From Colwellia ponticola (GTDB lineage: Bacteria > Pseudomonadota > Gammaproteobacteria > Enterobacterales > Alteromonadaceae), in the NCBI RefSeq assembly GCF_005885605.1, contig NZ_SZVP01000016.1:1-64000 (forward strand): a DNA stretch of 64,000 bases. The letters run 5' to 3'. This document shows positions 41,243-46,076 of this stretch, one piece after another (position 1 is the first letter of the stretch; the number at the start of each line of letters is the position of its first letter). The notes under the pieces were generated by a model. It made no database searches and was not told where the DNA came from. It saw only the letters and a program-made list of their open reading frames with translations. Made by a program: the position numbers and the translations under genes.

Positions 41243-42090
41243 TGTCAAACTCAACTATTGCACAAGCAGGTGCGCGTTATCAAACATCTTTCGCTGCTTT
41301 AACAGCAAAAAATGAAGGGGCTTTTATCCCTTTTGTCATGATAGGCGATCCTAATGCTGAGCAATCATTTGCCGTAATAAAAAGTTTAATTGATGCCGGC
41401 GCAGATGCATTAGAGTTAGGCATTCCTTTTTCTGATCCCAGTGCTGATGGCTTAACTATTCAACATGCCGCGCTACGCGCTTTAAAAGCTGGCGTTAACA
41501 CCGATACTTGTGTTGATATATTACAGCAAGTGCGCGCCTATGCCCCGCACATCCCCATTGGTTTATTACTTTATGGCAACTTAGTTTTTGCTCGTGGTAT
41601 TGATACTTTTTATCAAAATATGAGTGACGCTGGCGTCGACTCGGTTCTAATAGCCGATATCCCTTTAAGAGAAAGTGAGCCCTTTCGTCAAGCGGCATTA
41701 AAATACGGCATTGCCCCTATTTTTATTGCGCCACCTAATGCCAGTGATGAAACATTACGTAGCGTAGCGTCATATTCTCGTGGCTATACTTATGTATTAA
41801 GTCGCACCGGCGTAACCGGCGTAGATAGTGCTAAAAGTCCACAAGACACAGTGGCTAACACGGCAAATACCTTAATTGAACGTTTAACACAATATCATGC
41901 CGCACCACCCGTTTTAGGCTTTGGTATTTCAACACCACAGCAAGTGAAAGATGCACTTAACGCTGGTGCATTAGGGGCCATTAGTGGCTCTGCTGTTGTT
42001 AAAATTATTGAAGATAACCTAGCTGACCATAATAAAATGCTCAGCGACTTAACCTGCTTTGTTGGTGAGATGAAAGCGGCAACCAAATAA
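41242..42090 (+). CDS. trpA: Tryptophan synthase alpha subunit
   Basis: TrpA cleaves indole-3-glycerol phosphate and channels indole to TrpB. The 282-residue TIM barrel has the catalytic Glu in [11 protein letters not shown] and Asp in SDPSADG, the active loop RTGVTGVDS, and the phosphate site GFGISTP. It is the last gene of the operon, overlapping trpB by one base, and is followed by a terminator. Confidence 0.96.
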
Positions 42091-42120
42091 GGCGTGGTTT
42101 TATACTGACCATGAGTAAGC

Positions 42121-42149
42121 AAAAGGGGCAACTATACTGCTCCTTTTTT
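42121..42149 (+). terminator. Intrinsic terminator of the trp operon
   Basis: AAAAGGGGCA pairs with TGCTCCTTTT (one G-U pair) around a 7-base loop, and a T run follows. It lies 30 bases after the trpA stop. Confidence 0.75.
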
Positions 42150-42193
42150 GTGAGCTTTTTATATTTTGAGCTCTGAAAATAAAGTGTCAGATA

Positions 42194-42835
42194 TAAAAAA
42201 TGCGACTCATTGAGTCGCATTTCTATAACTAGCTTATACGGTGCATCCTGCACACATACTTAATGCTCTCATCTCTTCCCTGAACAACTATCCCTAGCAT
42301 TTCCTTTATATCCGTTATGAGCCCATTCATATGCTCACTTAATCCTTTTAGGTAACGATTAGCTTCCCTGTCTATCATCCATAATAGTGTATTCCTGACT
42401 TTGGTTTTCCTCACCAAGCCGCATCCCTGTTTATTATCCCTAGTGGCATCCTACCACTTAGCTTTATCCTTAAAGCCTCCTTGTTAAACCTTTTTTAAGT
42501 AATACCTTAATACTATTTAAAAATAAAACATCCTGCTTTAGGTTTTAGCGTCTAGCTGTTATTAAAGTACATATCCTTTTGCACTTTCTTCGATACCTTT
42601 ACTCAGTACCTTATTTAGTACAAGTATCCTTACCTGCCTCTTCCATGAATAGCATCCATACCTCAAGCTTTATACATCCACTGTAACTAACGCTTGCTAA
42701 GTTATTATTACCGTCCTCGGTAAATCCTACTGTTACTAAATATCCTTTAAGTAACTATTATGTCCTTATGTGCACAAAAAAATATGCTGAAGCGTCCTGC
42801 CTCTTGTCTTCCTAACATTATTAATAATACGCTAA
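42194..42835 (-). ncRNA. CsrB/Rsm-family CsrA-titrating RNA (candidate)
   Basis: CsrB-type RNAs bind many copies of the regulator CsrA through GGA motifs in hairpin loops and so relieve its control of mRNAs. Read on the minus strand, 42241-42815 holds 27 GGA triplets; the plus strand holds none. Several sit in loops of short perfect hairpins: 42241-42253 (GTGCA stem), 42461-42476 (GCTTTA stem, AGGA loop), 42708-42723 (TTACCG stem, AGGA loop), 42442-42458, 42732-42755 and 42401-42417. A strong minus-strand terminator ends it, and a GacA-type palindrome lies upstream. At about 640 bases it is longer than E. coli CsrB (about 370). No protein frame fits. The 5' end is estimated from a possible -10 TATAAG (42842-42847) and -35 TTGTTT (42866-42871). 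Confidence 0.85.
42195..42222 (-). terminator. Terminator of the CsrB-like RNA
   Basis: On the minus strand AAATGCGACTCA pairs with TGAGTCGCATTT and runs into six T. The other strand has a poorer T run, so the direction is minus. Confidence 0.9.
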
Positions 42836-42841
42836 ATATCT

Positions 42842-42871
42842 CTTATAGGGTCTTGTTACCAGTCAAAACAA
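42842..42871 (-). promoter_or_regulatory. Possible promoter of the CsrB-like RNA
   Basis: On the minus strand TTGTTT (42866-42871), an 18-base spacer and TATAAG (42842-42847). An overlapping TTGACT at 42861-42866 is an alternative -35 element, but then the -10 would be poor. Confidence 0.4.
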
Positions 42872-42982
42872 TAATGTAAATAGAATGTAACTTGGTGTTT
42901 TTTTTATTTGCTGTTATTAATCAATAGGTTATTTTTATAATTCACATAACAAGCTTATAAATGCCAATATATCTCACAGCAA

Positions 42983-43000
42983 TGTAAGACATGTCTTACA
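42983..43000. promoter_or_regulatory. GacA/UvrY-type upstream activating palindrome
   Basis: TGTAAGACATGTCTTACA is a perfect 18-bp palindrome and fits the known GacA/UvrY/VarA site TGTAAG-N6-CTTACA, which activates csrB/rsm RNA genes from a distance. It lies about 155 bases upstream of the estimated RNA start, a spacing like that in rsmZ and csrB promoters, and 28 bases past the stop of the upstream GGDEF-EAL gene. Confidence 0.85.
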
Positions 43001-43028: not shown

Positions 43029-46000
43029 TTATTGCCATGTTCTGGTTACCTCACTCATCTCATCAAACGCTAATTCAAAATCAACTAAAATAGCCTGTGT
43101 AGTGTGCAAATCCCCCTGTTGATAGTGTGACTTTATAGCATGGGCAATTGAATGAACTTTATGATGAACTTGTTCTAATCGTTCAATACCTTCCCTTGCA
43201 AAAAGTTGCTTTGTTTTTTCACGTGCTATCCAATTACCACAGTGACAATAATGACTATCAATAATAGGCCAATATGTAACACCATCAGATCCCTCTGATA
43301 CTTTTTCAGTTAACTTGTCTTTCCATTGTCGACTCAATATTTTAAATATGGCTAAACTATTTTCTTTATTACTACGAGACTTATTGCCACAAAGTAGCCA
43401 GTCTTGGTTAGCAATATAGTGTCGTAACCAGTAACTAAACTCACTAGCAGGCATAGGCGGCGCAACCTCATAGCCTTGCGCTTGTTCGCAGCCCATCATT
43501 AATAACATTAAACCATGATTTTTACTTTCAACACCTTCAGCAATCACATTACGGCTAAATGATTGAGTTAAGGCAATAACGCCCTCAATAATTGAGTAAT
43601 CACTGGGATCATCGAGCATATCCCGAACAAAGCTTCGATCAATTTTAATGGTATCAACGGGTAAACTTCTCAAGTGAGTCAACGATGAGTAGCCAGTACC
43701 AAAGTCATCTAAGGCAAAGCTGACGCCCAAACGCTGTTGGCAGGTTTTAATAATGTCAGTAATAATAGAAATATCGCCTAAAGTCGAGCTTTCCAATATC
43801 TCTAATTGTAAGTATTGACTATCAATAGTGGGATATTTAGTTAAATTATTTTTAAGTACGTCAAAAAACATAGGTGACAATAAATGGTTTGATGAAATAT
43901 TAATACTCATTTGAATAAGGATATTATGCTGCTGCCACTGAGTAAGTTGCTGTAGTGCTTCATTTATAACCCATTCACCAAGCTTGTTTTCTAATGGTGT
44001 ATCATCAATAAAGGGTAAAAAGTCGAGTGGTTGAATCAGCCCTTTATCAGGGTGAAGCCAACGTATTAAGGCTTCAACGCCAAAAACATCACCGGTAGTC
44101 ATATTAACTTTGGGCTGATAATACAGCTCAAACTCATTATTAGCTAACGCCTGTTCAATTTCTTCAAGTTGGCTATTTTTTTGAATAATAAGTTGGTCAT
44201 AATCAGGATTATAAAGCTGAGTACGATGTTTACCTGCCAATTTAGATTGATACATAGCATGGTCAGCATGACGCAATAAAGTGTCAATATCGCTGTTATC
44301 AGAAGGATATAAAGTGACGCCACTAGAAGCGGTAATATTATGTTGAACACCATCAATATCATAAGGTTGTGCTAGTGATTGGTGAATACGATCCATAGTC
44401 ACTTCATATTGTGATGCTGATTTTAGATCATTAAGTAATATGGCAAACTCGTCGCCACCTTGACGTGAAACGGTATCCTCTTCCCTAATGCACTCGGTAA
44501 TTCGCTTTGCAACTTCAATTAACAAACGGTCACCAACATCATGACCATAGTTATCATTGACGGGTTTAAAATCATCTAGATCTAAAAAACAAATAGCGAG
44601 TTGATGACCCGTACGTATACTATGAGCAATAGCATGGTGAAAACGGTCAACAAATAATGCACGGTTAGGTAGTTTAGTCAATACGTCATAATGAGCCATT
44701 AATTTGAGTTGCTCTTGCTGACGTTTTAAATCGGTAATGTCAGAAAAAAGGCAAATATAATGCGTTACTTTACCCTCATCGTTTTTTAATGATGAGATAG
44801 AAAGCAGCTCGGCATAAAGATCGCCTTGCTTTGATTTGTTCCATACTTGACCTTGCCAATGACCTTGCTCCGTAACCGCTTGCCACATTGCTTGATAAAA
44901 GTTAGCACTGTGCTTACCTGATCTTAAAACGTGTGGTGTTTTACCAATCATCTCCTCACGGTTATAACCGGTTATATCACTAAAAGCTGGATTAACATCA
45001 ACGATAACCTGTTCTTCGTTAGTGATCATAATAGCCTCATGAGTATTATTAAAGACCCTAGATGACAGCTGTAGTTTTTCTTCGGCCAACTTTCGTTGAT
45101 TGATTTCTATTCTAAGCGCTGTAGTTGCTTCACTTATTTTCTCTTTAAGCTTACGAGGTCTATCCATAAGAGAATAACAAAGCAGCGCGGCTATTAGACT
45201 ACTAGGTAGAGTTAACCCCCAATACCAAGATGAGTGAAAAAATCCCGCGATATGATTACTTTTTTTTTCAGTAACCGCTATTTGCCATTGTGCATTAGGT
45301 AATCGTATAGTGCTTTTTGCGATAGGATTTTCAAAAACTGCTGCCTCACCAAAAAAAACATCTCCTTGTGCGCCTAAACCATCCTTACCTCGTATAGCTA
45401 GGTTAAAATCTTTCATTAAATTAACAACTAATGTATCTTCTAATAAGGATTTAATATCAATTAATACCGTAGCAAATCCCCAAAAATTTGCTTGTTGGTC
45501 ATTAATCCCAGGAAAAAAAATAGGTCGCCTTGCCGTAATAGCCTGCCCTCCCTGGATCAAATCCATTGGTCCTATAATAAGATAGCTATTATCTTGAATA
45601 GCTTTTAAAGCCAATTGACGACGTCTAGGATCGGTAAGTAAATTGTGTCCTATGACTTGTTTATTAAATTCAACATCCGTGACATAAGTCACAATACCGT
45701 CTGGAGCTAGTTGAAGGCTGACAATACCTGTTAAATCATTTAAAAGTAATGAAGTGAAATTATTAAAGTCTTCAACTGAAAATGTTTTATGGGTGTAAAC
45801 AAAAGCACGTAAACTACTTGTTAAGTTTAAGCGAACTTCCATTGAAGAAGAGATAACACCGGCAATATCGTTAATTCTTTTTTCTGCCGTAGTGCTACGT
45901 GATTGTAAAGCAGACTTTAATTCAACGTGATAGAGCCAAAAAGCCACAAAAAAAATCAATGAGAAACAGCATAAAGCGCTAATTAATGGCAGAGCATGTA

Positions 46001-46076
46001 AACCAAAAAAGCGCTTTTGCTTTTTGCTTTTACACTGGTTAACTGCATTGTTATTTTTTTTAGCTTGCATATTCAT
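43029..46076 (-). CDS. CHASE-PAS-GGDEF-EAL signalling protein with C-terminal CZB-like domain
   Basis: A 1015-residue membrane sensor that probably makes or degrades c-di-GMP. In order: membrane helix (about 30-50), periplasmic CHASE-type sensor (about 75-275), second helix (about 283-305), PAS domain (about 340-455, NPAFSDITGYNREEMIG), GGDEF domain with an intact RQGGDEFAIL, and an EAL domain with GVEALIRWLHP and DDFGTGYSSL. Both catalytic signatures look intact. The last 110 residues resemble a CZB zinc-binding domain (HYCHCGNWI, then VHHKVHSIAHA), although the first His usually expected before its Trp appears to be Ser. The gene lies directly upstream of the CsrB-like RNA on the same strand. 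Confidence 0.9.
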   Translation of the reverse strand: MNMQAKKNNNAVNQCKSKKQKRFFGLHALPLISALCCFSLIFFVAFWLYHVELKSALQSRSTTAEKRINDIAGVISSSMEVRLNLTSSLRAFVYTHKTFSVEDFNNFTSLLLNDLTGIVSLQLAPDGIVTYVTDVEFNKQVIGHNLLTDPRRRQLALKAIQDNSYLIIGPMDLIQGGQAITARRPIFFPGINDQQANFWGFATVLIDIKSLLEDTLVVNLMKDFNLAIRGKDGLGAQGDVFFGEAAVFENPIAKSTIRLPNAQWQIAVTEKKSNHIAGFFHSSWYWGLTLPSSLIAALLCYSLMDRPRKLKEKISEATTALRIEINQRKLAEEKLQLSSRVFNNTHEAIMITNEEQVIVDVNPAFSDITGYNREEMIGKTPHVLRSGKHSANFYQAMWQAVTEQGHWQGQVWNKSKQGDLYAELLSISSLKNDEGKVTHYICLFSDITDLKRQQEQLKLMAHYDVLTKLPNRALFVDRFHHAIAHSIRTGHQLAICFLDLDDFKPVNDNYGHDVGDRLLIEVAKRITECIREEDTVSRQGGDEFAILLNDLKSASQYEVTMDRIHQSLAQPYDIDGVQHNITASSGVTLYPSDNSDIDTLLRHADHAMYQSKLAGKHRTQLYNPDYDQLIIQKNSQLEEIEQALANNEFELYYQPKVNMTTGDVFGVEALIRWLHPDKGLIQPLDFLPFIDDTPLENKLGEWVINEALQQLTQWQQHNILIQMSINISSNHLLSPMFFDVLKNNLTKYPTIDSQYLQLEILESSTLGDISIITDIIKTCQQRLGVSFALDDFGTGYSSLTHLRSLPVDTIKIDRSFVRDMLDDPSDYSIIEGVIALTQSFSRNVIAEGVESKNHGLMLLMMGCEQAQGYEVAPPMPASEFSYWLRHYIANQDWLLCGNKSRSNKENSLAIFKILSRQWKDKLTEKVSEGSDGVTYWPIIDSHYCHCGNWIAREKTKQLFAREGIERLEQVHHKVHSIAHAIKSHYQQGDLHTTQAILVDFELAFDEMSEVTRTWQ

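Follow-up and report, generated by a model that had tools for sequence, protein, structure and literature searches.

Can a gap rich in GGA triplets, lying beside a GGDEF-EAL gene in Colwellia ponticola, be the gene of a regulatory RNA, and is such an RNA as unusual as its length at first implies? For the 64-kb stretch of DNA that was analysed here (hereafter the window), an earlier note had proposed a CsrB/Rsm-type RNA at this place, and the proposal gains support from the promoter anatomy, the GGA hairpins, the terminator, the conservation across the genus, and a genome that also encodes CsrA, UvrY and BarA. Judged by these features, the locus is very probably a csrB gene for a CsrB-type, CsrA-titrating RNA. 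In model species it is established that CsrB RNAs control how much CsrA is free, and thereby switch the cell among growth, motility and biofilm programmes.

The GGA-rich stretch

An exact recount of the minus strand at 42241-42815 agrees with the 27 GGA triplets claimed before, against none on the plus strand; the many AGGA and AGGGA motifs that had been mentioned amount to 17 and 5, respectively. The accompanying expectation of 6-7 GGA was understated: the strand contains 26% G and 37% A (63% purine), and its own composition gives 14.2. The excess nevertheless lies beyond shuffling of the stretch, the top GGA count being 22 in 2000 dinucleotide and 26 in 2000 mononucleotide shuffles. Segments of 575 nt, taken from both strands of the 64 kb, contain 3.0 GGA on average (sd 2.3), and the runner-up place reaches 11. 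The description of the gap as free of open reading frames is right in substance, except that a 62-aa ORF with a TTG start lies inside the stretch (42229-42417, minus) and a 70-aa ORF with a GTG start (42041-42253, minus) overlaps its end.

Promoter region and the upstream gene

The GacA-type site claimed to lie upstream is found as a perfect palindrome, TGTAAGACATGTCTTACA (TGTAAGN6CTTACA, 42983-43000, minus), a putative UvrY/GacA box identified by pattern match, and a genome scan with the slightly looser pattern TGTRAGANATNTCNYACR returned this box as the only place with zero mismatches. Alignment of the genus promoters places a conserved second UvrY-like half-site, GTGAGATATATTGGCAT, at 42961-42977 (minus) and a -10-like hexamer, TATTAT, in conserved position at 42824-42829 (minus). 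Between them lies an IHF-like site, TAACCTATTGATT (42919-42931, minus), matching exactly YAANNNNTTGATW, which we take to be the IHF consensus for this site and for the genus promoters. A clear -35 element is absent upstream of the predicted RNA start (about 42817, minus), where a consensus promoter scan listed no sigma-70 promoter.

Fifty promoter rows of the genus, picked by a box with at most two mismatches, align in the box, a half-site like TGTGAGATAT 4 bases on, the IHF-like site and the -10-like hexamer; TATTAT or TAATAT stands directly before the RNA in most of them. Under the presumed IHF consensus, a site with at most one mismatch occurs in 36 of 48 genus promoters (shuffles, 200 rounds: mean 16.5, maximum 25) and an exact one in 8 of 48 (mean 1.3, maximum 5). 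Box and RNA start stand 182-187 nt apart in 47 of 48 genes, and 176 nt apart in the remaining one, within the limits set by seeking the 5' start motif 120-240 nt from the box.

The GGDEF-EAL gene (43029-46076, minus) lies on the same strand as the RNA and ends at 43029, and the consensus scan listed no terminator before the RNA, as would suit a different reading, in which the GGA stretch belongs mostly to the 3' untranslated region of the GGDEF-EAL mRNA and serves there as a CsrA-binding end, in place of a free small RNA. Among 44 loci, some of which are cut by contig ends, a GGDEF-EAL gene stands beside the RNA in the window only, with merely weak matches (26-37%) in three others, whereas the box, its spacing and the 5' motif are retained in other contexts; we regard this explanation as very improbable in comparison with a csrB gene of its own. 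The GGDEF-EAL protein contains a PAS domain, and its best NCBIfam match, below cut-off, is the phosphodiesterase DibA. It was also considered as a CsrD and rejected (109.5 bits against a cut-off of 663; not a conserved neighbour among the 44 loci). No protein of the genome exceeds the 663-bit CsrD cut-off (best score 124.5), and turnover of the RNA may therefore differ from that in E. coli. The window's genome does encode CsrA (67 aa), BarA and a UvrY whose gene directly precedes uvrC, all above cut-off.

The predicted RNA

With a 5' end placed by a conserved motif, the predicted CsrB-type RNA extends over about 624 nt (42194-42817, minus) and carries the 27 GGA. It would begin with hairpin 1 (UGUU-AGGAA-GACA, 42805-42817, minus), which is conserved among the genus copies, and hairpin 2 (GAGGC-AGGAC-GCUUC, 42789-42803, minus), with compensatory stem changes among relatives; another eleven hairpins with GGA loops and stems of five or more pairs follow at 42241-42750 (minus). 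At the other end, the element AAGCUAG (42229-42235, minus), which all 48 genus copies possess and 14 of 56 family segments have close to their end, stands just 5' of an intrinsic terminator, whose 13-pair stem-loop and T run (42198-42222, minus) accord with the strong minus-strand terminator claimed earlier, and which the consensus terminator scan did not list. A terminal stem-loop with T run occurs in 48 of 48 genus genes, the terminator having been a selection criterion.

The claim that at least five GGA sit in hairpin loops is exceeded, since 12 of the 27 lie in loops whose stems have five or more consecutive standard pairs; in 500 controls, in which the GGAs were fixed and the other bases permuted, the mean was 3.5 and the maximum 9. 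The margin is thinner for stems of at least four pairs (16 GGA against a control mean of 8.0 and a maximum of 16, n=500). The fold of the window RNA has a z-score of -3.3, from only 20 shuffles.

The 5' end is exactly TGTCAGGAAGACA in 33 of 48 complete genes and a close variant in the remainder, this motif having itself been part of the gene-finding criteria. The loop of hairpin 1 contains GGA in 47 of 48 genus copies. Hairpin 2 is present in 46 of 48, its loop carrying GGA in 19 of the 46, the window included, and AGGGG in 24. Covariation was assessed in 26 distinct rows of 29 nt, being all distinct rows of the 46 copies; L099 and the second gene of L104, without hairpin 2, were omitted, which favours structure. 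In this set both-sided changes occur in three of the five pairs of hairpin 2, and hairpin 1 has one-sided changes only. Taken together, the two hairpins have 98.3% of cells paired; in shuffles the figure is 94.7%, and sliding lowers it to 56% or less. Their covariation score lies above 500 of 500 shuffles; their number of pair types is no better than in shuffles, 115 of 500 reaching the real value.

A run of seven T follows hairpin 2 in the window RNA (42764-42803, minus), was listed as terminator-like by the consensus scan and might cause early termination in the window strain; a run of six or more at nt 26-60 is found in the window alone among the 48 genus copies.

Conservation in the genus and Rfam scores

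At least part of a csrB-type gene was found in all 39 genus genomes. A DNA search with the window found relatives in 38 of them, in a few a part only; the genome that it missed (G215, locus L187) has a csrB gene with box, 5' motif and 21 GGA. Forty-eight genes qualified as complete by having box, 5' motif and terminator; that they share these features is therefore partly due to selection. Outside the 48 stand genes cut by contig ends (the second gene of L072 with L073; L087 with L088; L094), L083, for which no standard terminator was found, and L187, which was found later. The complete genes measure 307-1185 nt (median about 534 nt) and carry 15-68 GGA each (median 27); length and GGA count are closely correlated (r = 0.97), with a density near 5 per 100 nt (range 4.2-6.1). 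It follows that the RNA, which had been called unusually long, is long against the 356-position Rfam model and not so within its genus.

The GGA sites are kept in the relatives, with 1366 in sense and 4 in antisense over the 48 genes, and 536 of them lie in hairpin loops with stems of at least five pairs (control mean 167, maximum 199, n=50). These counts bear on two further explanations. The locus could be the messenger of a small protein, namely the 62-aa ORF at 42229-42417, with the GGA enrichment incidental; such an ORF exists, and sense ORFs of at least 40 aa occur in 16 of the 48 homologous RNAs, but one of at least 60 aa is found in the window only and a conserved frame was not seen, and the excess of GGA in hairpin loops over the control likewise speaks against a messenger. 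We rejected a coding function, to which we give next to no credence. Neither do we see any appreciable chance of a functionless purine-rich intergenic stretch, which could draw on the 63% purine of the strand, with about 14 of its 27 GGA expected from composition, and on the likewise frequent AGG (1254) and AAG (1215) of the 48 genes. Against it stand the 1366 GGA, where GAG amounts to 439 and composition predicts 636 GGA, as well as the conserved promoter and terminator and the relatives throughout the genus sample; an artefact of composition was rejected by the shuffles, the permutations with fixed GGA and the comparison of GGA with GAG.

The RNA, it had been suggested, might escape existing models, which proved correct. 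Rfam RF00018 (CsrB) matches 42192-42558 on the minus strand with 31.1 bits (E 2.6e-6), short of the gathering score of 71; at E <= 0.001 the window locus is the sole match genome-wide. Over the family, 54 of 196 genomes match at E <= 0.001 and none of the 196 lies above the cut-off, in a search with stricter filters that missed the window locus itself; annotation relying on RF00018 would therefore miss the regulator. For ten related loci, no Rfam family reaches its gathering score.

Other UvrY-type boxes of the genus were inspected in eight regions. One of these is the csrB gene of G215 (L187), and the other seven were found to lack a box properly spaced from a GGA cluster of the csrB type. 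Paired UvrY-like boxes, with starts 22 bp apart, occur in G198, G211 and G217 (L182 2308-2347, L183 2369-2408, L189 2199-2238); a csrB-like GGA cluster at the right distance is absent there, and the pairs are perhaps another UvrY target. A box TGTAAGAAAGGTCTTACA stands directly before a 407-aa ORF in G135 (L184 2243-2260) and is found in identical form in G208 and G209.

Two genes or one enlarged gene

Two csrB genes are present in at least 14 of the 39 genus genomes. They lie side by side in eight loci, with the box of gene 2 located 107-354 nt past gene 1, and 9.3 kb apart in one locus. In a UvrC tree of 37 genomes (without G199 and G206, both counted as outside the clade), the window falls within a clade of 20 that has support of 100/99. 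The two-gene genomes of this clade (n=13 countable) have 46-80 GGA in total (median 62), and genomes outside the clade with one gene found (n=19) have 15-28 (median 21); G203, G212 and G217, whose genes are cut by contig ends, were left out of these totals. Clade members with one gene found are the window (27 GGA), C. piezophila (36), TT2012 (53) and C. marinimaniae MTCD1 (68).

TT2012 and MTCD1 are both hadal piezophiles, and their gene contains an internal tandem module of 147 nt, in 3.3 copies in the former and 4.6 in the latter. The arrays lie between one promoter and one terminator, and within the RNA neither a box at three or fewer mismatches nor an extra terminator candidate was found. 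The flank upstream of the box matches the gene 1 flank of two-gene relatives, and the first 290 nt of the RNA best match gene 2, the promoter and the 3' part being ambiguous. A history in which gene 1 was lost by recombination and gene 2 grew later would fit these sequences, which do not prove it. The window and C. piezophila, each with one gene and no enlargement, speak against such compensation.

Both enlarged genes, and largely also the repeat survey and the two-gene pattern, come from draft assemblies, and a second copy missed in these may be the cause of one-gene counts. Short-read assembly collapses repeats more often than it invents them. Extra csrA copies were considered as a possible partner of the larger sponges: TT2012 and MTCD1 have two strong csrA matches each, which genomes with csrB genes of ordinary size also have, and G201 has a single one. 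More than one strong CsrA match per genome is found in G196, G211, G212, G135, G198, G205 and G209, and no strong match in G214, at 94% completeness. According to PMC7542103, the two hadal strains belong to separate species (ANI about 95%) and came from depths of 9161 and 10,918 m; a link of the enlarged genes with pressure is confounded by shared descent.

Tandem modules in other genera

Internal tandem repeats (period of at least 20, span of at least 75 nt) were found in 9 of 55 family segments outside the genus, against 0 of 110 flanks and 0 of 165 shuffles; within the window's own genus such repeats occur in 3 of 48 genes, against 0 of 144 shuffles. It should be noted that the family segments were drawn from RF00018 matches and are not a random sample, that the 55 correspond to 52 distinct ones (L021/L259, L024/L257 and L030/L258 being counted twice), and that the survey skipped L016, of the same genus, and dropped 3 of 58 segments with fewer than 12 GGA. 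Five of the nine serve here as support. Three species of one genus have units of 50 nt (6 copies), 50 nt (6 copies) and 51 nt (3.8 copies); a second genus has one of 26 nt (5.8 copies at 93% match), and a third has a weaker one of 44 nt (3.1 copies at 79% match). The 50-nt unit consists of two AGGA hairpins with a single-stranded GGA between them, and two relatives in the genus of the 50/51-nt units are without the repeat. A further module, of 86 nt, occurs in a sister lineage. Among the TRF hits, L020 and L028 are weak, and the repeats of L254 and L248 may not belong to csrB; none of the four counts as support. In L254 (G139), hairpin repeats of 111 nt with GGA (2.2 copies, 99% match) accompany a weak RF00018 match, and they may belong to another element.

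Proposed function

What can be read from the DNA itself are the sites and their spacing, the hairpins with the covariation of one of the two at the 5' end, the conservation, and the genes for CsrA, UvrY and BarA. Phosphorylated UvrY, with BarA as its partner, would bind the palindrome, some 175 bp before the start, IHF would bend the DNA between box and promoter, and a promoter without a good -35 would fire. The resulting RNA of about 624 nt would fold into a string of short hairpins with GGA in the loops and single-stranded GGA between them, and CsrA dimers would bind to these sites and be drawn off their mRNA targets until the RNA is degraded.

The RNA of the genus can be called elastic, in that its length varies at a near-constant density of GGA behind a retained promoter and between a retained 5' end and terminator. 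In kind the window RNA is familiar, if long; what deserves notice is that internal amplification recurs, which suggests that titration capacity can be adjusted. Tentatively, and as a possibility against which we would lean slightly, we propose an evolvable dial in this and related genera: the number of CsrA sites per RNA would be set by tandem gain and loss of GGA-hairpin modules (147, 86, 50-51, 44 and 26 nt), selection would act on the total dose of sites, and a lineage losing one of two csrB genes would have made up for the lost capacity through growth of the other to 53-68 sites and 1.0-1.2 kb. Natural RNAs with 15-68 GGA behind the same promoter layout would permit a direct test of titration against site number and of dose conservation, made practical by cultured psychrophiles and by the closed genome that Colwellia marinimaniae MT41 has according to PMC7542103.

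Comparison with known systems

In the open-access literature, most subscription papers lying outside it, we found no description of a Colwellia csrB or of internal csrB module amplification. A paper from 2006 reportedly predicted CsrA-regulating RNAs and may list Colwellia. Among the open-access matches listed, no title or opening of an abstract dealt with internal repeats in CsrB, and the accessible part of PMC2330054 likewise did not; that of PMC10516948, on Colwellia, treats csrA expression only. Related RNAs with expression or functional data are those of Alteromonas, Pseudoalteromonas and Shewanella (PMC5864184, PMC11882849, PMC9927453, PMC3171408), and the comparisons below refer to the accessible text of the papers cited.

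E. coli CsrB (RF00018) shares the GGA hairpins and a UvrY inverted repeat near -183 (PMC4682653). Its promoter has much the same layout as that of the window: the inverted repeat is centred at -183/-182, a half-site follows 5 bp downstream, and a putative IHF site precedes the promoter (PMC4682653). The E. coli RNA carries 22 GGA (PMC11882849) and its Rfam model has 356 positions, against about 624 nt and 27 GGA in the window and up to 1185 nt with 68 GGA among its genus relatives. Aln1a-c of Alteromonas macleodii, whose expression was the highest in that data set, are likewise GGA-rich CsrA-type RNAs from a related marine genus, but they are three short RNAs out of a 404-bp region (PMC5864184). 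Pf1-Pf3 of Pseudoalteromonas fuliginea are CsrB-type RNAs as well; Pf1 has a GacA-like box and, depending on the paper, 25 or 21 GGA (PMC11882849; PMC9927453), and Pf1 and Pf2 differ in that for them no sequence match outside Pseudoalteromonas is reported (PMC11882849).

In Vibrio tasmaniensis (csrB1-4), duplication of csrB increases the copy number; this is duplication of the whole gene, and the accessible text does not mention internal module amplification (PMC6262261). Shewanella oneidensis has neighbouring csrB genes, CsrB1 and CsrB2, which are UvrY-dependent and possess TGTAAGN6CTTACA boxes as in the window; they differ in their predicted size of 420 and 421 bp, in the transposase gene between them and, as far as the accessible text goes, in that an internal tandem module is not mentioned (PMC3171408).
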